From Armatimonadota bacterium (GTDB taxonomy: Bacteria > Armatimonadota > Zipacnadia > Zipacnadales > JABUFB01): a stretch of 64,000 bases of DNA. The stretch covers positions 232,622-296,621 of the forward strand of contig JABUFB010000003.1 in NCBI GenBank assembly GCA_013314775.1, written 5' to 3'. Shown here in pieces: positions 8,424 to 48,132 of this stretch; the first letter of the stretch is position 1, and each line of letters starts with the position of its first letter. Below the pieces are notes generated by a model that had not been told where the DNA came from, made no database searches, and worked only from the letters and a program-made list of their open reading frames with translations. Made by a program: the position numbers and the translations under genes.

Positions 8424-10850
8424 CTACCGACTCACCTCGATCCGCAGTAAGCGCGAAGTAGCCCCCCGGCCATCGATCGTCGCCTTCACAACAACATCAT
8501 GCGTCCCGACACGGTCCGGAACTCCCGCAAGAACCGGCTCGTCGCCGGACAGACTAAGCCACTCCGGGCCGGACTCAAGCTCCCACTGCGGCTGTTCCTG
8601 ATCCCAGTAATGCGCATTGTAGCTGTTGCCGTTGATCATCCGACAACGCAGGTCCCCCAGCGAGCGGACGCACCTCAAAGGACACCGGAATGTTTCCCCA
8701 ATCTTCGCATTCAGGTCGCCCTCAACCACGATCAGCGGCCGAGGCGCTTCCGCGTAATCAGAAGACCAACTCCGGTTCCCCTTTTCATCGATCGCCACCA
8801 CCCGGTAGTAGGCCCGGTTGGCATTTGGCAGATCGATCCCGTCGCCGATGACCGGCAAATGGCAGTCTGCGGTCTCAGCCACGAAATTGGCCGGGAAAGG
8901 CGTCGGAAGCTTCTCTTTCTGGTTTCCCACGTTCACCGCGTATGGCTCGTCGCTGACGCTGAACCCCTTCTCGTCACTGCCGTATACCCGGTACCTCACC
9001 GGAGTGCGACCTTCGGGATGGGCCTGCCATTTGAGAATGTAGACTCCAGTCGCCTCGTCTAGTTGCAGACCAACCGCTTCCGGAACAGCCGGTCCGTTAG
9101 CGCGGAAGGTCCAGACTTTGCTCCACGGACCCCAAAGATTGTGGCGGTTCCGTGCCCGGACCGACCAATAGTATACCCTCCTTGGCGAAATCAAACCCTC
9201 TCTGGGCAGGCTGTACTGCGCTTTGCCCCTGTCAGCGGTGTTCGAGATGAGCTTCGTAAAGTTGGGCGACAGCGCCCAGCGCATGTCCGGGCGATCCGAC
9301 AACCGGAACTCGTAATCCGCGATCTCGTGCCCCTCCGGTGCGTCGGGTGGGGTCCATCGAAAGACGATCTTCGTCCCCTCGACCGTGGCCCCGTCTTCCG
9401 GGAATACAGGCCCTGGTGGCGCAGGCGGCGGCGACGACAGAGAGCGCTCCACCCAGGTGTGGGTCACTCGCACATTCCGCGGGCCCTGGGTGTCATCCGT
9501 GTACACAAACCGGTTATCTCCAACCACCATTCCCGGCAGCGTGAGCACAGCCATCTGCAGATCGCCGATGATGCCGATGCTTCGCAGCGCTGCGCCGTCA
9601 GGCAGCGTGCAGCGCAGGAGGAACTCGTACCGCGCCGGAGAGGCCGGCGGGAAAAACCCGTCGAGATCAGCTTCGCAGGCCTGCCAGTTCTTCCCGTCCC
9701 AGGACAGTTCGAACTGCGCGCCGTCTCCTTCCGCTTCCAGCCTCCCTCCCACGAACACATACGGGCTGCGGATGCGCCAGGTCACGCTGCCACCGCCCTG
9801 TGCTGTGGGCCGCAGCGCACCATCCACCCAACCAAGGTTCTCGACCGCCTCGGCTCCTCGCTTCCAGACTTCGCCTGTCAGGTCAGGCCGGTACTCCCAC
9901 AGGCCGTTGCAGACCTTGTCGACCGCATTCTGCCCCCAGTCCTTGATGTCCTCGTAGCCGTGGAACTTCACTGGTGTCAGATGGCCCCAGCGCCATGTGA
10001 TTGCCTCGCCGGGCCGCAGCGTCATGTTCATGGTATGCCCCCGCGCACAGTCCCTGTCCCCCGTGGGCGCGGTGTCCGTGATATACAACGAGGCCGAGAA
10101 CTCATCCAGGTTGCGGTCGTCTCTCGCCAGAATCCCGTATGTGTGGGTGCGTTTGATCAGGTCGTGGTCTCGTGTGACCTGCGCTTCGCTGGCAACGGTG
10201 TAGTTATCCCGCAGCAGGAAGAAGCAGTGCTCATCACCGTCCAGAACGTGCCAGGCGTCGTCGTAGAATACCTGGGTGATGCTGTGCCCGATGGGACGGC
10301 ACGGGGCTACATTCAGCCCCGCCGATTTCCACAGGCCCGCGAGACACGTGGCATCATTCCCGCACAACGTGTAACCGTACACGTTATAGACCTTTACCGG
10401 GTCGTTGACCTCATCGTCGGCGGTGTATGCGTGGAAACGCTGCTGGGTCTGCTGCCAGTACAGCGCGAAAGCCTTCTCGCGGTCGGTCATGCCCGGCTCA
10501 ATCGCGCGGCTAAGGATTTCCTCGAGAGTGCGAAATCCGTTGCGGCCATTGAACAGCCACGGGTTCACCACATCCGTCTCGCCCACATTCTCCATCCGCA
10601 CCGCACGGTTGGATTCCCACGGCTGGCTCCAGGCTGCGTAGCCAATGGGCGGCCGGCAGTTGATGCCGTCCATGGTTCCGCCCTGGAAAACTGTGTAGAC
10701 GAACTGCCCGTCCGTGATCTCCTGCACGTGCCGGCAGAGGCGATCCTCGGCATGCCCGCGTGATGCCCACGGTTCGAGGTCCTCAGCATCGAGACCGCTT
10801 ATGGTCATCATGCACAGCCCGGGCACGAGCAACCAGCGAGCAAAGCTCAT
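8424..10850 (-). CDS. Secreted transglutaminase-like protein with fibronectin-III-type domains
   Basis: An 808-residue exported protein. A signal peptide (about residues 1-22) precedes a transglutaminase/cysteine-protease-like domain with a likely Cys163-His189-Asp204 triad (YTLCGNDATC; GHSITQVFYDDAWHVLD). The middle is beta-rich, then come two fibronectin-III-like modules (PVFPEDGATVEGTKIVFRWT; VYYWSVRARN) and a C-terminal Ig-like domain of the He_PIG type (EWLSLSGDEPVLAGVPDRVG). The ATG at 10850 has AAGGA nine bases upstream. It follows the macro-domain gene by 31 bp. The substrate is unknown; peptide or cell-wall cross-link hydrolysis is possible but not shown. Confidence 0.72.
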   Translation of the reverse strand: MSFARWLLVPGLCMMTISGLDAEDLEPWASRGHAEDRLCRHVQEITDGQFVYTVFQGGTMDGINCRPPIGYAAWSQPWESNRAVRMENVGETDVVNPWLFNGRNGFRTLEEILSRAIEPGMTDREKAFALYWQQTQQRFHAYTADDEVNDPVKVYNVYGYTLCGNDATCLAGLWKSAGLNVAPCRPIGHSITQVFYDDAWHVLDGDEHCFFLLRDNYTVASEAQVTRDHDLIKRTHTYGILARDDRNLDEFSASLYITDTAPTGDRDCARGHTMNMTLRPGEAITWRWGHLTPVKFHGYEDIKDWGQNAVDKVCNGLWEYRPDLTGEVWKRGAEAVENLGWVDGALRPTAQGGGSVTWRIRSPYVFVGGRLEAEGDGAQFELSWDGKNWQACEADLDGFFPPASPARYEFLLRCTLPDGAALRSIGIIGDLQMAVLTLPGMVVGDNRFVYTDDTQGPRNVRVTHTWVERSLSSPPPAPPGPVFPEDGATVEGTKIVFRWTPPDAPEGHEIADYEFRLSDRPDMRWALSPNFTKLISNTADRGKAQYSLPREGLISPRRVYYWSVRARNRHNLWGPWSKVWTFRANGPAVPEAVGLQLDEATGVYILKWQAHPEGRTPVRYRVYGSDEKGFSVSDEPYAVNVGNQKEKLPTPFPANFVAETADCHLPVIGDGIDLPNANRAYYRVVAIDEKGNRSWSSDYAEAPRPLIVVEGDLNAKIGETFRCPLRCVRSLGDLRCRMINGNSYNAHYWDQEQPQWELESGPEWLSLSGDEPVLAGVPDRVGTHDVVVKATIDGRGATSRLLRIEVSR

Positions 10851-10881
10851 GAGCACCAATCCTTGCGCGGAGATGCGGAGA

Positions 10882-11436
10882 TCAGGTCTCAGGCCATGCA
10901 GTTCGCCATTCGTCAGCGAAAGCCTGCACAGTTACATCGTCGATGATACAGAAATCGATCCGCCTCAGGGACCTCGTGGCTTGCGCAGTTAGCCACTGCT
11001 CGGCCTCACGCAGCAGGATTCTGGCGCAGCGGTCTTTCGGGAACCCGAAGATGCCCGAGCTGATGGCAGGCAGCGAGATACTGGTAAGCCCCAGCTCCTC
11101 AGCGCGTGCGAAGGCCGCCCGAACGGCCGACGTTAGCTTGCTGTCCGCTTCCGGGTCCGACCCCAATGGTCCGACCGCGTGGATCACATAGCGGGTCGCC
11201 AGCGAGCCGGCCCCCGTGACCACCGCCGAACCCTCGGGGCAGCGGCCGATCCGATTGCTTTCCTCCTGGATGACCCGTCCCCCTCGTCGCACGATGGCGC
11301 CTGCAACCCCGCCCCCATGCTGGAGAGCCGAATTCGCGGCGTTGACGATCGCATCGGTCGTAGCCAGAGTGATGTCCCCCTGCACGAGCCTGATCTCGCC
11401 CCCGCCCACACCGCGGCTCAAGATAACCTCACCCAT
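10882..11436 (-). CDS. Macro domain protein (ADP-ribose / O-acetyl-ADP-ribose hydrolase-like)
   Basis: A 184-residue single macro domain that binds ADP-ribose and typically deacetylates O-acetyl-ADP-ribose or removes ADP-ribose from targets. Diagnostic stretches are GDITLATTDAIVNAANSALQ, the glycine-rich HGGGVAGAIVRRGG loop and LPAISSGIFGFPKDRCA. The ATG at 11436 is favoured over the one nine codons upstream because GGAGGAA lies nine bases before it. Cytoplasmic, no signal peptide. The secreted transglutaminase-like gene follows 31 bp downstream, so they may be co-transcribed, though no functional link is obvious. Confidence 0.92.
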   Translation of the reverse strand: MGEVILSRGVGGGEIRLVQGDITLATTDAIVNAANSALQHGGGVAGAIVRRGGRVIQEESNRIGRCPEGSAVVTGAGSLATRYVIHAVGPLGSDPEADSKLTSAVRAAFARAEELGLTSISLPAISSGIFGFPKDRCARILLREAEQWLTAQATRSLRRIDFCIIDDVTVQAFADEWRTAWPET

Positions 11437-11635
11437 GAGTCGCCGTTCCTCCGTTTTGCACAAATCGACTTATCTTGACCCGGTTTTTGACAATCTCAGG
11501 CAGGCCATTGTTTCGTTCCGCACTAACTGCTGTCCCAGGGGTGTTTGAAGGTGTATACTCACGAGGAGCGTTCACATCACTGAAGGATGCTCCCAGGCCA
11601 CTCCCGGCTCAGAGTTCGTCCCGAAAGGAGTACGT

Positions 11636-12448
11636 ATGGACCCGCGACACAACTTCCCTCCGCCCCGGCACGTGCGGGACCTGTTTTCACTCCAGGGCCG
11701 TGTGGCTCTGGTCACCGGGGGAGCAGGACGCTACGGTGCCGGGCAGACCTGGGCCGTTGCCGAAGCCGGGGCGAAGACCATCGTCGCCTCCCGCAATCTC
11801 GACAGATGCCAGGCAATGGTCGACGAGCTCCGCGCCGCCGGCTGCGATGCCGTTGCCCGGCAGCTTGATCTCACTAGCGAAGAGAGCATCGCCGACTGCT
11901 GCGCCTGGATCGAGAAGGATCTGGGCCGCCTCGACATCCTGTTCAACAACGCGGTCTCCCGCTCCACGGGCGGCGATTTCAGCACCGTCACCGCAGAGCA
12001 GTGGACAGAAACCATGATTGTCAACTCCACCAGCCTGCTCGTATGCACCCGCACCTGCGCTGAGATCATGAAGAAGCAGGGCAAGGGCAGCATCATCAAC
12101 ATCGCGTCCATCTACGGCATGGTGGGCCCGCAGTTCGAAATCTATGGCAGCACGGGCATGAAGAACCCCGGCGAGTACGCCTTCGCCAAGGGCGGTATGA
12201 TCCAACTCACCCGCTACCTTGCCACGTTCTACGCGAAGGACGGGATCAGGGTGAACTGCATCAGCCCCGGCGGATACTACGACGGTCAGCCCGAAGAGTT
12301 CGTGGACAATTACTGCGCTCGCACGCCCTTGGGGCGCATGGCCGGCCCGGAAGACATCAAGGGCGTGGCCCTGTTCCTGGCATCCGACGCATCCGCATAC
12401 GTCACTGGGGTCAATATCCCCTTGGATGGCGGCTGGACTTGCCAGTGA
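11636..12448 (+). CDS. SDR family NAD(P)-dependent oxidoreductase
   Basis: A 270-residue short-chain dehydrogenase/reductase. Cofactor-binding TGGAGRYGAG lies near residue 27, NNAVS corresponds to the NNAG motif, the catalytic Ser lies in IINIASIYG, and Tyr/Lys lie in EYAFAKGG. The C-terminal YVTGVNIPLDGGWT is typical of the gluconate-5-dehydrogenase and 3-oxoacyl-ACP reductase-like group. The substrate is probably a sugar acid or alcohol given the surrounding gene content, but that is inference. The TGGAGRYG loop lacks the usual final Gly-Ile-Gly. Divergently arranged from the macro-domain gene with a 199-bp intergenic space. Confidence 0.9.
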   Translation: MDPRHNFPPPRHVRDLFSLQGRVALVTGGAGRYGAGQTWAVAEAGAKTIVASRNLDRCQAMVDELRAAGCDAVARQLDLTSEESIADCCAWIEKDLGRLDILFNNAVSRSTGGDFSTVTAEQWTETMIVNSTSLLVCTRTCAEIMKKQGKGSIINIASIYGMVGPQFEIYGSTGMKNPGEYAFAKGGMIQLTRYLATFYAKDGIRVNCISPGGYYDGQPEEFVDNYCARTPLGRMAGPEDIKGVALFLASDASAYVTGVNIPLDGGWTCQ

Positions 12449-12602
12449 CCTGTGAGATCACGATGCGTGCACGTCGTCAGGTGCGGGCCTGCCCAGCGAC
12501 TGCCGGTGCGGGATGCCCGCGCTGACAAGCGGACAGGGGCGCGCACACCACGTTGTCACAGCCGTTCGCACGCTGAAGTAGCCTGTTGCGAGGTGATGCA
12601 CC

Positions 12603-13310
12603 ATGGCGCATGAGCTTGTCGGAAAGCAGATGAAACGCTGGGAGATGGACAACCGCCTCAAACGTCGTTTCGAGGCGGACGAAATCGAGTGCGCCATGAC
12701 CACTCCGGTGATCACCATCTCCCGACAATGGGGAAGTGGCGGCACCAACATCGCCAAACTGGTCGCCAAGAAACTGGACTTCAAATTGTATGACAAGGAG
12801 ATCATCGAGCACATCGCCGAACTGTCGGGGGCGAGTCCGTCGCAGATCGAGCATCACGATGAGAGCGACCCGGGCGTCTTCAGCGACCTCGTCCTGCAGC
12901 TGCTCGAGGGCAAGCGCCCCACTTCTGCGGGCTACCTGCGCGCTCTGGTCAAGGCCGTCAAGCAGGTTGCGCGGGCAGGGAATGCGGTGATCATCGGCCG
13001 GGCGTCCAATCTCATTCTCCCGCTGGCCTTCAACGTGCGGATTATCGCGCCCGAGAACGTGCGGGTCCAGCGAATCAGCGAATTGCATAATACCGACGAG
13101 CGTACGGCGCGCCGCATGGTCACTCACTCCGACCGCCAACGCAGCCGCTTCGTCCGCTCACAGTTCGGGGCTGACTGGAACGACCCTCTCGCCTTTGACA
13201 TTGTTCTGAACACCGAACACTTCAGCATCGAGCACGCCGCGGATCTTATCATCAAGGGCTTCACGGACCGCAGACAGGGACAGATAGGCACGTGCGCGCC
13301 TTCGAGTTGA
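12603..13310 (+). CDS. Cytidylate kinase-like family protein
   Basis: A 235-residue P-loop protein of the cytidylate-kinase-like (Cytidylate_kin2) group, not the essential Cmk. An N-terminal segment KQMKRWEMDNRLKRR precedes ITISRQWGSGGTNIAKLVA, the P-loop region at about residues 37-55. AVIIGRASNLIL and the Arg-rich ERTARRMVTHSDRQRSRF lid follow. The ATG at 12603 has GAGGTG eight bases upstream. The true substrate of this group is not established. Its 3' end overlaps the D-aminoacylase start by 19 bp, indicating co-transcription. Confidence 0.88.
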   Translation: MAHELVGKQMKRWEMDNRLKRRFEADEIECAMTTPVITISRQWGSGGTNIAKLVAKKLDFKLYDKEIIEHIAELSGASPSQIEHHDESDPGVFSDLVLQLLEGKRPTSAGYLRALVKAVKQVARAGNAVIIGRASNLILPLAFNVRIIAPENVRVQRISELHNTDERTARRMVTHSDRQRSRFVRSQFGADWNDPLAFDIVLNTEHFSIEHAADLIIKGFTDRRQGQIGTCAPSS

Positions 13311-14917
13311 TCATCCGTAACGGGCTGTTGTTCGACGGAACCGGCGCTCCCGCAAGGCCGGCGGACATCGGCATTCGGGGGGACACAATCGCCGCCGTCG
13401 GCGACCTGGCCGGCGCTGAATCGGCGCGAACCGTCAACGCCGCCGGCCTCAGCGTCACTCCTGGTTTCATCGACATCCACGCCCACTCCGACCTTACCGT
13501 GCAGGTGAACCCCGCCGCGGAAAGCAAGGTCCGGCAGGGCGTGACCCTCGAGGTCAATGGCCAGTGCGGCTACTCGCCCTTCCCCGTGAATCCCGGCGAC
13601 CGCGCCGAACTGGACGCCCTGAACCCCTTCGTCACCGCCCAGCCGGACTGGACCTGGACCACCACCGCCGATTTCCTCTCCGCATTGCGAGCCACCGCGC
13701 CCAGCATCAATCTCGGCCAGCTCGCCGGACACAGCGCCCTGCGCGCACGGGTCATGGGTTTTGCCAATAGTGCCGCGAGCCCGTCACAGGTCGCCGCTAT
13801 CTGCGACGAAGCCCGCGCTGCGCTGGACGAAGGCGCTATCGGCATCTCCTTCGGCCTGGCCTATGCGCTGGGGTCCTTCGCCGCGAATGACGAGATCGAG
13901 GCCGTCTGCCTCGTGGCTGCGCAGGCCGGTGCGATGGTCAGCGTCCATATCCGCAATGAAGGCGAGTTGCTCCTGGAAAGCATCGGCGAAATGCTGGACA
14001 TCGCCCGGCGGGTCAGCGAGACTGCTCCCTTGCGCCTCCAGTTCGATCATCTCAAAGCCTCGGGGAAACGCTGGTGGGGGAGAGTCGCCGATGCCCTGGA
14101 GCTTCTCGAAAGCGCCCGGTCGGAGGGCCTTGACATCGCTTTCGACGTGTACCCGTACATCGCGGGAAGCAGGCACCTGTCCGGCTCACTGCCCGCCTGG
14201 ATGCACGACGGGGGCAACGAGGCCCTCGTGAAACGCCTCGCCGACCCTGACTGCCGAAAGCGACTGCGCGCCCAGCACGACGCCTGGCTGCGCGGCGAGA
14301 TCGGGCACAGTCCTTTCGAACTGGACTTCGACCGCATCGTGGTCACCGAGGTCCTGACAGACGGCAATGCCTGGACTGTCGGGAAGAACCTGGCCGAAGT
14401 CGCATCGGAGCGGGGGCAGGATGCAATCGATGCGACCCTCGACCTCCTCATGGAAGAGCGGGCCCAGGTCAGCGTGGTCCTCTTCAGCATGACCGAGGAG
14501 GACATGACCCGGGCCCTGAAACACCCGCTGGGTTGCATCGGCACCGACGGCCTGGTCTTCGCGCCATACGGGCCACTCTCCCGCGGCAAGCCCCACCCGC
14601 GCTCATACGGCACGTTCCCGCGGGCCATTGGCCGCTATGCCCGTGACGCCGGCCTTATGCCGGTGGAAGAGGCGATCCGCAAATGTACCTCCTGGCCCGC
14701 CTCGCGCCTCGGCTTACGCGACCGTGGGACGATCCGCGAGGGCATGAAAGCCGACCTGGTCCTCTTCGACCAGGACACTCTCCTCGACCGCGCCACCTTC
14801 GAGGACCCGCACCAGTATCCGTCAGGCATCGCGCAGGTCATCGTGAACGGCCAGACGGTGATCGACACCGACCGCAACCTTGCCCCCGGCTCGGGGGAAG
14901 TGGTGAAGCGGTCATAA
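13292..14917 (+). CDS. D-aminoacylase / N-acyl-D-amino-acid deacylase
   Basis: A 541-residue amidohydrolase-superfamily enzyme that removes the acyl group from N-acyl-D-amino acids, a zinc hydrolase. It shows the N-terminal composite domain (LIIRNGLLFDGTGAPA), the metal-binding FIDIHAHSDL at about residues 59-68, QCGYSPFP at about 92-99 and FDHLKASG. The C-terminal GMKADLVLFD is typical of the fold. The start is GTG at 13292, inside the previous gene; SD is weak, as expected for a coupled start. It could act on D-amino-acid-containing wall fragments or on an unrelated N-acyl compound. Confidence 0.9.
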   Translation: MRAFELIIRNGLLFDGTGAPARPADIGIRGDTIAAVGDLAGAESARTVNAAGLSVTPGFIDIHAHSDLTVQVNPAAESKVRQGVTLEVNGQCGYSPFPVNPGDRAELDALNPFVTAQPDWTWTTTADFLSALRATAPSINLGQLAGHSALRARVMGFANSAASPSQVAAICDEARAALDEGAIGISFGLAYALGSFAANDEIEAVCLVAAQAGAMVSVHIRNEGELLLESIGEMLDIARRVSETAPLRLQFDHLKASGKRWWGRVADALELLESARSEGLDIAFDVYPYIAGSRHLSGSLPAWMHDGGNEALVKRLADPDCRKRLRAQHDAWLRGEIGHSPFELDFDRIVVTEVLTDGNAWTVGKNLAEVASERGQDAIDATLDLLMEERAQVSVVLFSMTEEDMTRALKHPLGCIGTDGLVFAPYGPLSRGKPHPRSYGTFPRAIGRYARDAGLMPVEEAIRKCTSWPASRLGLRDRGTIREGMKADLVLFDQDTLLDRATFEDPHQYPSGIAQVIVNGQTVIDTDRNLAPGSGEVVKRS

Positions 14918-14980
14918 CGGAAGTCCCGCCGGCAGTGGGACAGCCAATGCTGCCTGTCCGCCATCCTTGCAGCCGCGTGG

Positions 14981-15060
14981 GGGTGGGCGTCTCGCCCGCC
15001 GGCCGCTGGCCTTCAGCCCCGCAGGGGCAGCAGCCCTTTGCCACCAGCGTGAGCTGGTGG
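14981..15060. repeat. Intergenic hairpin cluster (includes an R1 palindrome)
   Basis: Three perfect hairpins lie between the convergent D-aminoacylase and cysteine-hydrolase genes: GGGCG-TCT-CGCCC at 14985-14997 (family R1, also near 20906 and inverted near 61000), GCCCC-GCA-GGGGC just after, and CCACCAGC-GTGA-GCTGGTGG at 15041-15060. The last may terminate both genes, although no U-tract follows. Confidence 0.6.
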
Positions 15061-15077
15061 ATCTCAGGCCCCTCCCA

Positions 15078-15707
15078 TCACTCATCCTTCAGCTTCCAGA
15101 AAACCTTTCCGCTGTCCAGCCGGTGATCACCGCCCGGCACAAGTTCGATCTCCTTCCATTCCCTGCCCACAAGCATGAAAGACCGGAAGGCCGGCCATTT
15201 CGCGGGCGGAGTGTCCTTCACCAGCCGGTACACCCCGGTCACCCGGTGCTTTATGTCCCAGTACGGCGTCAGCTTGGTGCCCGCTCGCTGCGGATTGCCC
15301 CGGGCCTTGCTGCTGGTGTTCTCGGCGATGGTCTCCTTCCCGCCGATTTTCCCCACATAGATCGCCACATGCCCGTACTGCCCCGACCCGTGGTGGATGC
15401 CCACGATGTCTCCCGGCTGCAGGCTCCCATCGGTCACCCGGTGCCCCCGGGCCGCGAGCTTCGCCGTCATCGCCTTGGCATCCGACGCCTGGAACTCCCA
15501 CGTCCCCGGCCTCAACCCGCACGCCGTCTCGTACACCTGCCTCACGAACCGCGCGCAGTAACCTCCCGCCAGCAGATTCAGCTGTTGCTTCGCCGCACCC
15601 TCTCCAAGCGTGATGCGCGTCTCCCCCTGCTGGCTGGCCCTGGCGGCCGCCAGCGCATTGGCGACCACCTTCGCGATTTCCCCGTCTGTGTAGATCCGAT
15701 CCGACAT
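15078..15707 (-). CDS. NlpC/P60- or CHAP-like cysteine hydrolase
   Basis: A 209-residue protein with a papain-like cysteine hydrolase fold as in NlpC/P60 and CHAP amidases and peptidases. The likely nucleophile is Cys in LLAGGYCARFVRQVYE (about residue 50), and the likely His lies in GSGQYGHVAIYVG (about 113), with LQPGDIVGI before it. The ATG at 15707 has GGGAGG nine bases upstream. No clear signal peptide is visible, so a cytoplasmic or non-classically exported role is possible. The C-terminal 50 residues match no family I recognise. Peptidoglycan cleavage is a family-based guess. Confidence 0.75.
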   Translation of the reverse strand: MSDRIYTDGEIAKVVANALAAARASQQGETRITLGEGAAKQQLNLLAGGYCARFVRQVYETACGLRPGTWEFQASDAKAMTAKLAARGHRVTDGSLQPGDIVGIHHGSGQYGHVAIYVGKIGGKETIAENTSSKARGNPQRAGTKLTPYWDIKHRVTGVYRLVKDTPPAKWPAFRSFMLVGREWKEIELVPGGDHRLDSGKVFWKLKDE

Positions 15708-15854
15708 TGGCGACAACCTCCCTGTGCATCGAAGTTGCCGCCATCATCTCGCGCGTGCCTTTGTCTAGTCCTTGGCGCCGATTGGATTTGTGAACCGTTC
15801 TGGTTGTATTATCCTTGTCGCCGGTCACCATCCCGCGGATAACGAGAGCTCACC

Positions 15855-16700
15855 ATGGGTCGCCCCGTCACCCTCGCAACCTGCCAGCCGCCTATGCCCG
15901 GTCCGGGCCATCCCCCTCCTGAAGTTGAGCAGGCCGCCCTGGACCTGCTTGACGAAGCCGGCCGCCTCGGGGCCGACCTCACCTGCCTGCCCGAGTATCT
16001 CAATGGGGGCGGGCTTCTCGACGGGGGCGCTCCGGGAGCAGCCTTCGCCACCGCAGAGCCATTGCTGTCGCGAATTGCGGAGATCTGCGCGCGCTGGGAG
16101 ATGTTCGCGATCGCGCCGCTGGTCCACGAGAGTGATGGCCCGCGCAATTCGGCCTTCGTCGTCGGGCGTGACGGGTCGGTGTTGGGGCGCTACGACAAGG
16201 TGCATCTCACGAAGCCCGAGGCGGAGGCTCTGGGCCTTGTGCCGGGGGACGGCTTTCCCGTGTTCGAACTGGACTTCGGCGTCATCGGTGTGATGCTCTG
16301 CTACGATCTGTGCTTCCCCGAACCTGCGCGCTGTCTGGCATTGGAAGGTGCCGAGATCATCCTGTGCCCCTCACTCCAGCGCAGCTACACGGAAGCCGAA
16401 CTCGACCTGCAGGTTCGTTCCCGGGCATTCGACAACTTCGTCTATCTCGTGCGCAGTAGCTATGGCACACCACCGGGGGAACCCTGGAGACCTGGGATGA
16501 TCGCGGGGAAGAGCTGCATCGTTGCCCCTGACTCCACCATCCTCGCCGATCTGGGCCGCCGCACCGGGGTGGCATTGCGACAGATCGACCTGGACCTGGT
16601 GGATGTGGGCGCACGCTCTCACGGGGGCGAGATTGGCCCTCTGCGCGCCATGCGCCTGGAGGACCGTCGTCCGGAGACCTACGGCCGCCTTTGCCGGTGA
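15855..16700 (+). CDS. Carbon-nitrogen hydrolase (nitrilase superfamily)
   Basis: A 281-residue amidase/carbamoylase-like enzyme. The Glu-Lys-Cys triad is visible: Glu in CLPEYLNGGG, Lys in LGRYDKVHLT, Cys in GVMLCYDLCFPEPAR. The order and spacing match the superfamily. It hydrolyses a non-peptide C-N bond (amide or carbamoyl); the exact substrate is not predictable. It is a single gene with 15707-15854 as a divergent intergenic space from the cysteine hydrolase. The start is ATG with GAGAG just upstream. Confidence 0.9.
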   Translation: MGRPVTLATCQPPMPGPGHPPPEVEQAALDLLDEAGRLGADLTCLPEYLNGGGLLDGGAPGAAFATAEPLLSRIAEICARWEMFAIAPLVHESDGPRNSAFVVGRDGSVLGRYDKVHLTKPEAEALGLVPGDGFPVFELDFGVIGVMLCYDLCFPEPARCLALEGAEIILCPSLQRSYTEAELDLQVRSRAFDNFVYLVRSSYGTPPGEPWRPGMIAGKSCIVAPDSTILADLGRRTGVALRQIDLDLVDVGARSHGGEIGPLRAMRLEDRRPETYGRLCR

Positions 16701-16819
16701 TCAGCCCGCACGCCGCACCGGCCGTCCGCAGCTGTCTTTCGACGTCGGGAAAGGCCGTGCAGGGAAAGCGCGGCGGTCCGTTCACAAGGCGCCGACGGTC
16801 TGCTTCGGCCGCCGTCCCC

Positions 16820-19732
16820 CTACCATGGGTGGCCCTGCGCCCGGGTGGTTACCTCCACCGGCACCTCACCGTCCACCGTCACCTTCACCTGTTCGCCCAG
16901 TCCCGTCAGGCTCAGCCACGGGACCTTCCCCGCGTTCCAGTCAGCATAGGCTAACAGCGGAATCCGCAACCCGTCCCGCACCGGGGCCACGGACACCTTC
17001 CCCGCCGCCTTGTCTACCTGCAGGCCGGCCAGTGCCGGGCCGATTCCGAAGGCCGCTGTCCCCCGCGGGTAGTAGTCCAGTGAGATGTGATCACTACCGT
17101 ACACATAGACATCGGTGAAGCATCCACGCTTGTCCCGGTTGATGTACCGCTGCAGATTCTGGTAGCGCTCCATGTTTCCGCCCATGTCCATCCCCAGGTA
17201 CGCCGCCGCCATGTCCCGCCAGATATTCTGCGACACCCACATGTTGTTCTCGCGGTCCGAATGGGGGCTGCCATACTGCTTGAGCGTGGCCAGCGTCGCC
17301 GTCTGGATGTCTCGTCTCATGCGCTCCAGGTTGATCTCCGGCAGCTTGAGCCCCGACCGCATCGGATACAGCAGGCCGTTGCTGGCGTAGATCGAATAAC
17401 CATCCCAGCCCTGCACCGGCTTGTACGTGGGCTGCTGGTAGCCATAGCCCCCGTATGTGCCGCCCTGCGTCTGACCGTCGCCCTGGAATTGTCCGCCGGT
17501 CTGCCAGTCGTTGCTGTTCCACATGTCCTCCTGCTGCACGGGAGGAGTGCGTCGCCACGGGTCAGTCGCCGGTGGCTCGTACTGCTTCGGAGGCTGGTTG
17601 AGTGTCACTGCATAATGGTCGTCGAGCCACGCCTGTTCATCCAGCGTCCGGGCGATCAGCCTGGCCTGCCGCCGCCATTCCGTCGCCAGATCATCCCGGT
17701 TGAGCAGCTCCGCCATCTGCTCGCCGCACCGGAATGCCGCAAGCGCTCGCACCGCGAGATACGTCTGGTCCTTGGCGTACTGGATTGCCGCCGAGCCCTG
17801 ATCGATGGTGTTGTATGTCCCCTCCTCGTGGAACCCATCCCCGTCCGTGTCGCAGCGGATCACATGCGCAAGCAGTTCTTCCACATGCGGGAACAGTTCG
17901 CGCACAAGCCCGCCATCCGCGGTCTGCCGCCAGTAGTGGTGCAGGAGCAGGACGAAGTTGGTGTTCTCTTCCACCTCCATGTCATGCCCGTACTTCATGC
18001 CATTGGCCGACAAACCCATGCCCATATCATGGGACAGCACACCCTCGCGGATGTACTTCACCCACTGCTTCAGGGTGATCTTCATCAGCTCCGGCCAGTA
18101 TTCGAAGTAAAGCGGGGCGACGTTGTACTCCACGTCCACCGTCGAATGGAATTTGCAGCAGCCCTCCCAGACGCTGAACCAGTCTTGGCCCTCCTCGCTT
18201 GCGCAGTAGAACGTGTTCATCACCCAGCTCTGAAAGGCGAAGGCAAGGAACTCCCGGGTCTCCGGCGACAGGCTGGCATCCGCCACGGTGCTCTCGAACA
18301 GCGCCACCTTACGGTCGATCTCGGCGCGGTTGTCGAAAGCGTAGCGGGCGACATCATAAATGTCCGAGAACAGGTCCACGTACTTGAAGTGGTACGGCTC
18401 GTTCATCACTTCCAGAATTGGCTCCTGCACCCACCCCACATAGGCGAAAGTGCGCGACTCAGCACTCCCCGGCGCCAGTGTGAAATCCCACTGCAGCCCG
18501 GCCGCATTGTCAGCCCAAGCTGTGGTGAGGACTCTTCGCCCGTCCGCGTCCTTCCTGGTTTCCCCATTGACGCCCCGGGCGGCCGGCACTGACATCGTCC
18601 CCGCGTGCGCAGACACCCCTCGCGCCTGGTTCGGATCGGCGAACCAGGCGTGGGTGGTCTGCTTGCCGAACACCGGCAGATCGAAGGCCACACCCCGGCA
18701 GTCCGCATTTTCCACCCGGGTCACGGTCTCGGTCGGTCTGGGCGAGTGCCCCACCAAAATGCTCCCGACCTGCGCCTTGTCGGAGAGGTTCCTTACCGAC
18801 ACCTCCAGCAGGATATACGGCGCGCAGGAGAGCTTGAGATTCTGCGGATAGAAGGGCGCCTGGAAGCGGTAGGTCACTTCGAGCGGCAGGTCTGGCGCCC
18901 TGCAGGTGTAGGTGAGCGAGGTGAGCGTCTGTTCCTGGCGTATCTCGGGGAACGCTTCCAACCGCCCGTTGAAGGGCAGGGAGTACCATACCTTATCCTC
19001 ACCGGTCCCGCAGCCCACCCCGTAATACACCGCGGTCTTCGGGATGTCGTAAAGTGCCGGGTTATTCTCGAAGTACGCCACGTTGTAGTCTGCGTGTCCC
19101 AGCGCCGTCTGCCTGCACAGCCCCTTCTGCGGTCGTGGGTTGATGCAGATGCGCGACCCGAACCGGCTGATGGCCGTCTCGTAAACATTGTGCATATGCG
19201 CCGAGTCCCGGGTCACATTCCCCAGCAGCAGTTCCGGGCCGTCTTCGGCGCCGATCTCCAGCGACCAATCGGTGGTGTAGAGCTTGAAGAAGCTGATCTT
19301 GGCGTTCTCCACTTTGCCGCGGAAGCCCAGGGTCAACGAACCGTCCTCCGGCACCCGTACGGTTGTCGAGACCACCACGGCCTCATCCGGCCCCCCCCAT
19401 TCCAGGATGTCGAAGTTCTCAAACAGCGTCTGATTATTCAGCAGGATATCGAACACGCGCTCACCGGTCTCCCGGTACTTGAGCTCGCAGAACCCCATCT
19501 TGAGCCGGGCCATGCCGGGTGGCAGACCGGTCAGCACATAGCTGAACTCCTGCCCATAGCGCTCCTTCTGGAACTTCGCGTCCTCAGTGGTCTCCAGCAC
19601 AGACCGGGTCTCGGTCCATGTCTGGGTGTGGCCGCGCAACTGCACCTCCACTGGGCCGTAGTCCTCGGCGAAGGCAAGTTTCGGCGCGAGGCAGGCCAGG
19701 CAGGCGGCAGTGATCAGGGTAAGTCTCGTCAT
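16820..19732 (-). CDS. Secreted glycosidase-like protein: malectin-type domain plus (alpha/alpha)6 catalytic region
   Basis: A 970-residue exported protein. Its signal peptide is MTRLTLITAACLACL and on; the ATG at 19732 has AGGAG upstream. An N-terminal malectin-like carbohydrate-binding domain follows (residues about 30-160), then a large beta domain. The (alpha/alpha)6 region has FHSTVDVEYNVAPLYFEYWP, VLSHDMGMG and EVEENTNFVLLLHHYW, resembling GH52 or the glutaminase A/DUF4965 group. A Gln/Gly/Tyr-rich low-complexity insert of about 60 residues (WQTGGQFQGDGQTQGGTYGG within it) interrupts the catalytic region. It is divergent from the dehydrogenase operon. Substrate unknown; plant or microbial glycan is likely. 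Confidence 0.7.
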   Translation of the reverse strand: MTRLTLITAACLACLAPKLAFAEDYGPVEVQLRGHTQTWTETRSVLETTEDAKFQKERYGQEFSYVLTGLPPGMARLKMGFCELKYRETGERVFDILLNNQTLFENFDILEWGGPDEAVVVSTTVRVPEDGSLTLGFRGKVENAKISFFKLYTTDWSLEIGAEDGPELLLGNVTRDSAHMHNVYETAISRFGSRICINPRPQKGLCRQTALGHADYNVAYFENNPALYDIPKTAVYYGVGCGTGEDKVWYSLPFNGRLEAFPEIRQEQTLTSLTYTCRAPDLPLEVTYRFQAPFYPQNLKLSCAPYILLEVSVRNLSDKAQVGSILVGHSPRPTETVTRVENADCRGVAFDLPVFGKQTTHAWFADPNQARGVSAHAGTMSVPAARGVNGETRKDADGRRVLTTAWADNAAGLQWDFTLAPGSAESRTFAYVGWVQEPILEVMNEPYHFKYVDLFSDIYDVARYAFDNRAEIDRKVALFESTVADASLSPETREFLAFAFQSWVMNTFYCASEEGQDWFSVWEGCCKFHSTVDVEYNVAPLYFEYWPELMKITLKQWVKYIREGVLSHDMGMGLSANGMKYGHDMEVEENTNFVLLLHHYWRQTADGGLVRELFPHVEELLAHVIRCDTDGDGFHEEGTYNTIDQGSAAIQYAKDQTYLAVRALAAFRCGEQMAELLNRDDLATEWRRQARLIARTLDEQAWLDDHYAVTLNQPPKQYEPPATDPWRRTPPVQQEDMWNSNDWQTGGQFQGDGQTQGGTYGGYGYQQPTYKPVQGWDGYSIYASNGLLYPMRSGLKLPEINLERMRRDIQTATLATLKQYGSPHSDRENNMWVSQNIWRDMAAAYLGMDMGGNMERYQNLQRYINRDKRGCFTDVYVYGSDHISLDYYPRGTAAFGIGPALAGLQVDKAAGKVSVAPVRDGLRIPLLAYADWNAGKVPWLSLTGLGEQVKVTVDGEVPVEVTTRAQGHPW

Positions 19733-44497: not shown

Positions 44498-45730
44498 ATG
44501 ACATCGCGGGAACGAGTTCTCGCCGCCATAAACCACCGCAGGCCGGATCGCACCCCCATCGATGTGGGCGGCTCACGCGTCACCGGTATCTCGGTCTTCG
44601 CGTACGCGGAACTCCGGCGTTTCGCGGGCCTCGAAGACCGGCCCCCGCGCGTGTATGACATGTTCCAGATGCTGGCGGAAGTCGAAGAGGACTTCCGCCA
44701 ACGCTTCCATATCGACGTGGCCCCCGTGCCCCAGTATCGCCCGGCCTTCGGACTGGCGGTGGATGCCTGGAAGCCCTGGCGTCTGTGGGACGGCACCCCG
44801 GTGATGGTCCCGCAGGGCTTCGAGCCCGTCATCGACCCCAGCGGAGACATCCTCATTCGCAACTTCGGCGATCCCCAAGGTCCCTTCGCCGGTCGCATGC
44901 CCCGCGAGGGCTACTACTTTGACATGATCGGCGGCACGGGCATGAGCGCCAGCCTCACACTGCCTGATCCGGCCGAGTACGCCCGCACTCTGCGCCCCCT
45001 TGACGATGAGGAACTGGACTTCGCCGCCCGCATCAGCCGCGAACTGTATGACACCACCGACTATGCGCTGCTTGGGGAGTTCTGGGCCGGTGGCCTCGGT
45101 CTGCCCCTGAGCTTCGGCGACCAGATGATCGCCCTTGCGACCGAGCGCGAATGGTGCCGCGACGTCCTCCAGGCACAGGCCGACAATGCCATCGAGAGCG
45201 CGCGGCGTTACCATCAGGCGGTGGGCGACCGCTGTGTGGCCTGGCTCATTTCCGGCCATGATTACGGCACTCAGAGGGGCGAGCTGTTCCACCCCGAACT
45301 ATTCGCCGACCTCTTCGCCCCCGCGTTCAAGCGGATCAACGACTGGGTGCACGAGCACACCAGCGCCAAGACCTTCTATCACTCCTGCGGGTCGAACCGA
45401 GCGATCCTGGAAACTTTCGTGGAGATGGGCTGCGACATTTTCAACCCCGTGCAGGTGACCGCTGCGAACATGGATGCGCAGGAGCTTGCCGACCAGTTCC
45501 GCGGCCGCCTGGTCTTCTGGGGCGGCGGGGTCAACACCCAGAGCACGCTGCCCAACGGCACGCCGGAGGAAGTGGCCCGGCAGGCGGTCGAGCGCTGTCG
45601 CATCTTCGGGGAAGCAGGCGGCTACGTGTTCAACGCTATCCACAATATCCAGGCACGCACCCCACCCCAGAACCTCGCCGCCATGCTGGATGCGGTGTAT
45701 GAAGAGGGTCAGGGCGCCGACACCGCCTAA
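44498..45730 (+). CDS. UroD/methyltransferase-superfamily protein
   Basis: A 410-residue member of the uroporphyrinogen decarboxylase / corrinoid methyltransferase superfamily. Blocks include RERVLAAINHRRPDRTPIDV, FYHSCGSNRAILETFVEMG (possible zinc- or substrate-binding Cys) and VFWGGGVNTQSTLPNGTPEE. Distinct from the 21185 protein; the N-terminus here is typical of the family. ATG with GGGAG upstream, 17 bp after the pilin-like partner. The reaction is unknown. Its stop codon overlaps the end of the convergent cassette gene. Confidence 0.85.
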   Translation: MTSRERVLAAINHRRPDRTPIDVGGSRVTGISVFAYAELRRFAGLEDRPPRVYDMFQMLAEVEEDFRQRFHIDVAPVPQYRPAFGLAVDAWKPWRLWDGTPVMVPQGFEPVIDPSGDILIRNFGDPQGPFAGRMPREGYYFDMIGGTGMSASLTLPDPAEYARTLRPLDDEELDFAARISRELYDTTDYALLGEFWAGGLGLPLSFGDQMIALATEREWCRDVLQAQADNAIESARRYHQAVGDRCVAWLISGHDYGTQRGELFHPELFADLFAPAFKRINDWVHEHTSAKTFYHSCGSNRAILETFVEMGCDIFNPVQVTAANMDAQELADQFRGRLVFWGGGVNTQSTLPNGTPEEVARQAVERCRIFGEAGGYVFNAIHNIQARTPPQNLAAMLDAVYEEGQGADTA

Positions 45731-46071
45731 CGCACCACATCCACAACGAAATTACGCGCTCCCAGAGCCTGCTTGATTTTGGCTAGCCACTCTTCCTCTT
45801 TGTCGTCCACGGAGATCGTCCACGTGACCTCTTCTAAGTCAAAAGGGCCGCTGCCGCCCTCCCTGGGACGCCAGGCAACGCACACGAAGCGCGTGAAGGG
45901 CTGCGCCCATGTCATGCCGTTCTGCTTCTTTGCGTATGTGCCGCCCTCGACGTGCAACTCGACTCGTCGTCCGTTGCCGATACCATCATCGTTGCCGGCC
46001 GCAGCACGGAGGAAGTCCTCGAACTGGTCCGCCTTCTGAAAGTGCAGCTTCGGTGGAACAGATTGCACCAT
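45727..46071 (-). CDS. Small hypothetical protein of the DUF6602 cassette
   Basis: A 114-residue protein with no recognised family. It has mixed alpha/beta sequence: KLHFQKADQFEDFLRAAAG, then FTRFVCVAWRPREGG and EEVTWTISVDDKEEEWLAKI, which look like beta strands. A strong SD (AAGGAGG, eight bases) precedes the ATG at 46071, four bases after the DUF6602-like stop. Its own stop overlaps the stop of the convergent UroD-like gene by 3 bp. Base composition is lower in GC than its neighbours. Perhaps an accessory or immunity partner of the nuclease-like protein. Confidence 0.7.
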   Translation of the reverse strand: MVQSVPPKLHFQKADQFEDFLRAAAGNDDGIGNGRRVELHVEGGTYAKKQNGMTWAQPFTRFVCVAWRPREGGSGPFDLEEVTWTISVDDKEEEWLAKIKQALGARNFVVDVVR

Positions 46072-46075
46072 GGCG

Positions 46076-47008
46076 TTAGCCTCCTTTTGCCGTAGCCTTG
46101 TAGGCAATCGTTTCCTCTGCCGACGGTAGCTTCCGGCCGAGGTACTCGAGGATTCCAAGCTGCGCCCCCGATGTACAGTACGATAGAAGCTGGTCCCAGA
46201 AGAAGGCCAGGGCCTCCCCAGAGTTGCTCTCAGTGAACTTGCGAACATACAGTTCAACCGCGGCCTGTTCGCTCTGGTTCCCTGTTCTCTCCGAACGCGT
46301 GTCGTGATGGGCGGGATGCGCCTCCCCGAGTGAGGCTGGGTTTGTGTGGTCCAGGTCCGGCGGGAGACCGGCGACCACGGGCCGCCAGACCTGCATACCA
46401 TTGGCAAAGTGGACGAAGTCCGGCAGGTGCTCCGCGGGGAGCGGCGTGCCTTTGGTGGTCACTTCCGTCTCCTCTCCGGTGGCATCGTCCTTGACCTTCC
46501 TTGTCGTGGGAGGCGGCACGCCTTGCTCAGACGCATGCCTCAGCCAATCCTCAACGGTTTCAAACCTCTCGGGCCCGCTGAGCGCGAAGACCAAGCCTCG
46601 TATACTATCGTTGAGGCTCTTGGCGGCCCGGATGTTGTCCAGAGCCTCACCGAAGACCATCTCATTTACCCTGGACTTGACCTCAACAACCGCGACAACA
46701 GCATCGTGGCGCACCACAACGAAGTCGTCTTCAACATACAGCGGTGCATAGGAAGCCCGGTCATGGATGATGACATCGCACTGCCTGCTGAGTTCACGCC
46801 CATTCACACCGACCACGAAGCCTGTGTCACACCTCCACTGCTGCGGCAGATAGCTCGCGATGAACCTCCGCAGTGTGGCTTCCCTGGAAATGCCAACAGA
46901 GGGCCAATGTCGATCTTGGACCCACTTCTCAGCCATATCGGCCTCTGCTGCCATCTTGCGCGCCATCAGTTCGAAGAAGCTGAGGACGTCCGCCGTATAC
47001 TGGGCCAT
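46076..47008 (-). CDS. DUF6602-like protein with a PD-(D/E)XK-type nuclease signature
   Basis: A 310-residue protein. The N-terminal region (residues about 38-115) carries Glu43 (SREATLRRFI), Asp78 (SRQCDVIIHD) and Glu109/Lys111 (VVAVVEVKSR), matching the E-D-ExK pattern of PD-(D/E)XK nucleases and DUF6602. The C-terminal half is rich in Pro and Glu, without a known domain. ATG with GGGGGG six bases upstream. It sits 29 bp downstream of the carbohydrate-related gene and is followed by a 114-residue partner. Lower local GC suggests gene transfer. Nuclease activity is inference. Confidence 0.72.
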   Translation of the reverse strand: MAQYTADVLSFFELMARKMAAEADMAEKWVQDRHWPSVGISREATLRRFIASYLPQQWRCDTGFVVGVNGRELSRQCDVIIHDRASYAPLYVEDDFVVVRHDAVVAVVEVKSRVNEMVFGEALDNIRAAKSLNDSIRGLVFALSGPERFETVEDWLRHASEQGVPPPTTRKVKDDATGEETEVTTKGTPLPAEHLPDFVHFANGMQVWRPVVAGLPPDLDHTNPASLGEAHPAHHDTRSERTGNQSEQAAVELYVRKFTESNSGEALAFFWDQLLSYCTSGAQLGILEYLGRKLPSAEETIAYKATAKGG

Positions 47009-47037: not shown

Positions 47038-48132
47038 CTATTGTACCTTACCAACCTCCTCCAGCACCACATCATCCCACCACACAGAACCCGTCGCTCC
47101 GTTGCGCAGGTAGAGAGTGAACTTCTCCGCCGGCTTCACGCTGAACTGCCACTCGAAGGGGGTCCAGTCCTCCACCGGTGCCAGTCGCGGCGAACTGAGA
47201 TACTGCTCTTTCTGCTCTTTTCCATCGGCAATCAGCGATGTGTATGCGCCCTGGGTGTCCGCCTTATAGTACCCGCTGACCTTGTACGTCCTGCCGCCGG
47301 TCAGGAAGACCTCTTGCCCGAAGAGGAGATTGAGCCCGCCGGCAATCCCCTTGATTTCCGCGCAGTATTTCCCCGAATGTCCGCCCTCAACCACCTTGAG
47401 TTCCGCTTTCGTCTCCGGGGTCGTCGACCACATCGCGGTGATCCAGTGCGCCGGATTGCCCTCGGCGGTAAGCTTCTCGAAACCCCCGTCCACCACCAGC
47501 GGAGCGGTACTGAAGCGCAAGGTGAGGTCGGCGAAGTGGGGCGTCGCGGCAGCATCCGGCACCCGCAACCGCAGCGTGTACCGTTCCGGCTCCAGGTCAC
47601 CCAGGCTGATCTCCAGTAACCGAGCGTGGGGGGTGTCGGGCAGCGGCAAGACCCGCACCTGCTCCCGGCTCAGCGGGACGCCGTTGAGCGAAACTGCCGC
47701 TGATCCCGCATCCACCGGGTTGCCGGCATCATCCACCACCACTTTCACCACGCCGGGCGCTGCTCTCAGGTTCCCCAGGTCCACCTCGGGCGCAACCGCA
47801 AGATCCGCGCCGTCCACTTCCAGGCGAGCGATCACCGGATCATCTGCGTCCTTCAGGTTCAGCCACTGCGGCACCCGCAGGATCACCGTGGTGTTCCCGG
47901 CGGCTTCATCGGGCAGCGAGAACGTGGCGCGTCCACCCTCGTAGGCCACCGGCAGGCTCTTCCACGATCCGTCATTCGCCAGGAACACCGATCCCTCCGG
48001 CGCGTCGGCCAGAGGGACGGTGACAGTCACCGGTCCCGTGGAATGTACCCGCAGCCGGTCCAGCAGCGGCCCCTGGGCATGCAGGGCGGGCATGATCGTA
48101 ATCAGCGTAAGCACGACTACAGTCAGGCGCAT
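47038..48132 (-). CDS. Exported protein with a CBM4/9-like carbohydrate-binding module
   Basis: A 364-residue exported protein: signal peptide MRLTVVVLTLITIMPALHAQ (residues 1-20), cleavage near LHA-QG. The middle is beta-sandwich-like, with VPLADAPEGSVFLANDGSW. The C-terminal about 140 residues (PLVVDGGFEKLTAEGNPAHW; SGKYCAEIKG; VWWDDVVLEEV) match the CBM_4_9 carbohydrate-binding module. ATG with GGAGG upstream. It lies between the DUF4838 gene and the DUF6602 cassette on the same strand. It may be a glycan-binding helper for the neighbouring enzymes. Confidence 0.75.
   Translation of the reverse strand: MRLTVVVLTLITIMPALHAQGPLLDRLRVHSTGPVTVTVPLADAPEGSVFLANDGSWKSLPVAYEGGRATFSLPDEAAGNTTVILRVPQWLNLKDADDPVIARLEVDGADLAVAPEVDLGNLRAAPGVVKVVVDDAGNPVDAGSAAVSLNGVPLSREQVRVLPLPDTPHARLLEISLGDLEPERYTLRLRVPDAAATPHFADLTLRFSTAPLVVDGGFEKLTAEGNPAHWITAMWSTTPETKAELKVVEGGHSGKYCAEIKGIAGGLNLLFGQEVFLTGGRTYKVSGYYKADTQGAYTSLIADGKEQKEQYLSSPRLAPVEDWTPFEWQFSVKPAEKFTLYLRNGATGSVWWDDVVLEEVGKVQ

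Follow-up and report, generated by a model that had tools for sequence, protein, structure and literature searches.

A predicted NucC-superfamily nuclease gene and an orphan downstream gene, probably acquired within an Armatimonadota carbohydrate locus

The window, the whole analysed stretch of 64,000 nucleotides from an Armatimonadota bacterium, includes a carbohydrate locus with two closely spaced minus-strand genes and no other genes of defence type. The features relevant here, numbered from the first nucleotide of the window, are the following.

46076..47008, minus strand: gene for a 310-aa DUF6602 (PF20247) protein, a NucC-like PD-(D/E)XK nuclease by Pfam, PADLOC and PDB sequence matches, AlphaFold, Foldseek and motif invariance.
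45727..46071, minus strand: gene for an orphan protein of 114 aa and pI 5.7, the downstream partner of the nuclease, identified as an ORF and by codon score.
46080..46088, minus strand: AAAAGGAGG, the Shine-Dalgarno site of the 114-aa gene, from the sequence.
45727..45730, both strands: 4 nt shared by the 114-aa gene (minus) and the UroD-like gene (plus) where their stops overlap, from the sequence.

Four bases (46072-46075) separate the stop codon of the nuclease gene from the ATG of the 114-aa gene, and AAAAGGAGG, 8 nt 5′ of that ATG, lies within the final codons of the nuclease gene, an arrangement suggestive of translational coupling for the downstream gene. Codon scores favour exactly the 310-aa and 114-aa frames, so both are probably real genes. 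An earlier reading of the sequence only had described this layout of two ORFs with their short spacer and a good Shine-Dalgarno before the second, the overlap of the end of the pair with the stop of the convergent UroD-like gene, and a lower GC than that of the neighbours, and all three descriptions are borne out. The GC content of the cassette is 59.6% against a window mean of 63.8% (z −2.5), a value at the low extreme that just 0.3% of segments of 1282 bp reach, and at third codon positions GC is 0.71, compared to 0.77-0.82 in neighbouring genes. The deviation is genuine yet modest, about 4 points.

The 310-aa protein matches PF20247 in Pfam over profile positions 4-104 of 104 with an E value of 1.6e-20 and 73.4 bits, the curated cut-off being 27 bits. 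Among PADLOC models it is matched by the CRISPR-associated PD_DExK (5.1e-22), an effector model (1e-15) and NucC (2e-13), and its only PDB sequence matches are NucC chains, the best at 1.8e-6. The residues E43, D78, E109 and K111, on which the proposal of a nuclease-type protein had been based, are intact and, together with G39, invariant in an alignment of 30 sequences. An AlphaFold model made with the 30-row alignment has a pLDDT of 78 and a pTM of 0.77, with a low-confidence stretch at residues 211-242, and in a Foldseek search with it the first 14 PDB matches are all NucC (E 1.1e-12 to 6.8e-10), with restriction enzymes following at E 0.005. The restriction-nuclease-like core anticipated for a DUF6602 member is present in the model, with NucC its closest counterpart, and there is very little reason to doubt the family, motif and fold. 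That core is common also to restriction endonucleases, Type IIF and other (Bse634I, BbvCI and SgrAI), but these are weak fold matches, with E 0.005 or worse and TM below 0.36, and no methyltransferase adjoins the cassette. From motif and model, the protein is probably a PD-(D/E)XK nuclease within the NucC superfamily and catalytically competent.

NucC is an abortive-infection DNase, acting to kill the infected cell, and serves as effector in both CBASS and type III CRISPR. It is activated by cA3 and its trimers assemble into hexamers (PMC9704534). As a control, fragments of the Serratia, E. coli and Vibrio NucC proteins with solved structures were compared with PF20247 and matched it at 2e-33 to 7e-25; NucC thus belongs to PF20247, and to describe the family as being of ‘unknown function’ is outdated for some of its members at least. 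In the literature searched, no paper was found that names DUF6602. NucC (PDB 7zgv, 7zgw, 6p7o-6p7q, 6uxf, 6uxg and 6q1h) is the first fold match of the window protein and has in common with it the Pfam domain, the catalytic motif and its spacing, the distance from D78 to E109-x-K111 equalling that from D73 to E104-x-K106 in E. coli NucC. The window protein is, however, longer, at 310 aa versus approximately 240 for NucC, and is in a separate clade.

Relatives for the tree came from genome contigs (49), viral contigs (5) and otherwise from the phylum and plasmids, and the NucC reference set consisted of eight loci in which CBASS cyclases, nucleotidyltransferases or type III-B CRISPR genes are annotated. 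The single 310-aa sequence gave no match in a scan of the genome contigs, and the relatives there were retrieved with a 4-row alignment as query, a 12-row alignment being too diverse. In the tree of 76 rows and approximately 180 columns, 11 cyclase-linked NucC rows (CBASS or type III CRISPR) constitute one clade with support of 100/100, outside which there is one divergent Paenibacillus CRISPR-linked row, and the window protein is within a separate 39-row group with support of 97/90. Its branch is long (1.56) and one join has an SH-aLRT of 51. Constraining it to the NucC clade costs 16.4 log units with an AU p of 0.032, which is not strong evidence against its belonging there. On the NucC profile its score is 54 bits, versus 104 and 107 bits on those of the two other subgroups. 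The NucC-invariant R53, Y81 and Y100, of which we take the first two to be cA3-pocket residues, align with Q57, S86 and V105 of the window protein and are not kept across the 39-row group either, though Y87, one residue on from S86, could stand for Y81. No CD-NTase or Cas10 was found by phmmer in the loci of relatives, with SMODS matches in some of their genomes being counted per genome and not per DUF6602 contig, and none is present in the neighbourhood of the cassette, the Cas10 of this genome being on another contig. NucC proper was therefore rejected as the identity of the 310-aa protein, on the grounds of position outside the cyclase-linked clade, lack of a local cyclase and loss of these three residues. 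What the clade and residue results point to is a protein with the catalytic core of NucC without the cA3 signature. The cyclase-free DUF6602 proteins in the same 39-row group (L034-L082 and L083-L087) have the same invariant residues, but the best identity of any of them to the window protein is only 31% and their downstream genes are unlike that for the 114-aa protein.

Of the 291 genomes of the phylum, 10 have DUF6602, none of them a same-genus or same-family relative, and it is present on many plasmids. Gabija and type IIG restriction are among the PADLOC defence models that neighbouring genes across the relatives match, but PADLOC models match ordinary proteins as well. Proximity of homologues to known defence genes had been proposed as a check on the function, and its outcome is divided: such matches do occur, but the neighbours are a mixed set and the window locus contributes nothing further of the kind. 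The neighbours would be compatible with a defence role.

Within the nearest group, several Bacteroidales have the DUF6602 gene directly behind one for a large protein of Sel1/LRR type, which in one locus (L038) also has a kinase domain. Genes of this type, for approximately 985-1300 aa with Sel1 and BspA-type LRR, are directly upstream at L038 1055-4948, L040 2001-4955, L056 1220-4978 and L061 1137-4892, and in L059 one is two genes upstream; the combination looks like a recurrent sensor-effector pair. Two Flavobacteriaceae of the same nearest group have a protein of approximately 1490 aa with Mrr_cat and AAA encoded 39-44 bp upstream of DUF6602 (L039 480-4958 and L041 478-4953), and on a Vibrio plasmid (L008 2917-8259) a YejK/NA37 gene precedes DUF6602 by 4 bases and genes for SIR2 and TIR follow. 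The commonest domain downstream is Schlafen AlbA_2, found in 5 of 107 downstream neighbours of DUF6602 loci.

A same-family genome (G002) retains the order N_methyl gene, UroD (74% identical), CBM (57%) and DUF4838, and at the position of the cassette, between UroD and CBM, has approximately 660 bp of mainly non-coding DNA and no cassette; the contig of a same-genus genome (G001) stops short within the CBM gene. As the cassette is missing from the syntenic locus of G002, local acquisition is probable. What this comparison with one genome supports is either that the window lineage gained the cassette or that G002 lost it, and the low GC and sporadic distribution favour gain. The suggestion of a mobile module holds as regards odd composition and absence from the same locus in G002, but not as regards hallmarks of mobility, as neither integrase nor tRNA was detected at the site, nor any flanking repeat that is convincing. 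An imperfect direct repeat of 20 nt with 80% identity brackets the cassette (45722-45741 and 47054-47073), and was discarded as the mark of a mobile element since an exact 10-mer pair is, by our estimate, expected by chance in 2.2 kb. Tandem repeats are present in both related genomes, with three copies between UroD and CBM in G002 (L103 6133-6790) and units of approximately 44 bp upstream of the DUF4838 gene of G001 (L102 1-390).

The 114-aa protein has no family in Pfam, NCBIfam or PADLOC, in accord with its original description, and no relatives in plasmid, phage or viral-contig records. In the 291 genomes of the phylum it has only chance-level matches (E 0.005 to 0.1, some with internal stops), and among the ORFs of approximately 67 DUF6602 loci there is no match even at E 100. 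Its single-sequence model, as called for by the sequence-only reading, is of low confidence (pLDDT 65) and gives no Foldseek match at E ≤ 0.001; RAG and the other matches, at E ≥ 0.028 and TM of approximately 0.25, are meaningless. With the partner beside none of the relatives and nowhere else that was searched, it was rejected as a conserved companion and the notion of a conserved two-gene module is unsupported. This absence, which the sequence-only reading had itself named as grounds for refutation, counts against the module claim and not against the nuclease claim. The 114-aa protein is linked to the nuclease by position alone, and a lineage-specific partner role for it is possible.

The reading that we favour, at a probability of about 0.6, is of a DNase of the NucC family that acts independently of a cyclase, probably as an effector in defence, and that has an orphan and possibly regulatory partner; DNA cleavage, the defence role and the oligomeric state are what we infer here. 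Belonging to a branch apparently not tied to a cyclic-nucleotide synthase, the nuclease would most likely cut double-stranded DNA once triggered by infection or other stress. Its use in defence is likely, and would be that of an abortive or DNA-clearing effector. The pair would have been acquired between the UroD-like and CBM genes, with the 114-aa protein translated right behind the nuclease, probably by coupling. Within this scheme the small protein would most likely regulate the nuclease, as inhibitor or trigger, but that it is a regulator is a tentative guess. Bolder, and correspondingly doubtful, is the thought that the cyclase-independent branch of the NucC superfamily consists of defence nucleases for which dedicated protein partners, in place of cA3, act as the switch, the 114-aa protein being one of these.

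One alternative is a toxin-antitoxin or toxin-immunity pair, with the nuclease as toxin, bound and silenced by the 114-aa protein. The tight coupling, with genes 4 bases apart and a strong Shine-Dalgarno, and a recent joint acquisition of both genes would suit such a pair, but the partner is missing from all the relatives' loci, where a small same-strand gene (≤ 160 aa) is within 60 bp downstream in only 7 of 66 cases, the nuclease gene comes first and its product has no secretion or toxin-delivery domain, so that we consider it unlikely. Similarly improbable, in our estimation, is that the nuclease is a stand-alone restriction-like or DNA-processing enzyme carried as passive cargo, with the 114-aa gene an unrelated orphan picked up alongside; the intact nuclease motif, the good codon structure of both genes and the repeated occurrence of relatives beside defence-type genes stand against what the lack of linkage of the partner to DUF6602 elsewhere, the heterogeneous neighbours of the relatives and the many plasmid-borne relatives would otherwise suggest.

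On another contig the same genome has a type III-D CRISPR locus (L101, G000:C15:71500-91000, at 8944-18040) that encodes a 576-aa Cas10 with no HD domain detected and with YIGGDD, a GGDD cyclase motif, several Csm3/Cas7, a Csx10-like Cas5, Csm2, a CARF protein and a 424-aa membrane protein matching Mem_01; no SMODS-type CD-NTase was found in the genome. In another member of the phylum (G216) a NucC-clade gene is flanked by a RAMP gene and a CRISPR_assoc gene (L017 41-3309), and is a probable type III CRISPR-linked NucC. Though these two observations would be in keeping with the window protein being a true NucC acting in trans with cyclic oligoadenylates made by the Cas10 of its own genome, this is the least probable reading, and a decidedly improbable one, as the clade and residue results, with an AU p of 0.032 and R53, Y81 and Y100 not kept, leave activation in trans without positive support, the nuclease gene and a CRISPR locus with its own CARF and membrane proteins are on different contigs, and published NucC effectors were scored within CRISPR loci (PMC11229360).

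For the favoured reading of a cyclase-independent nuclease, the wider setting is that the protein belongs to the known NucC family, in a branch without a known alarm-molecule tie whose DUF6602 members are unstudied. This sister branch of NucC is the larger one and is widespread on plasmids and chromosomes. If it uses other triggers, a broad class of defence nucleases lies concealed under the DUF6602 label, cA3 control would be a later speciality of one clade, and the present pair, having no cyclase and just one small partner, would offer a compact test case.
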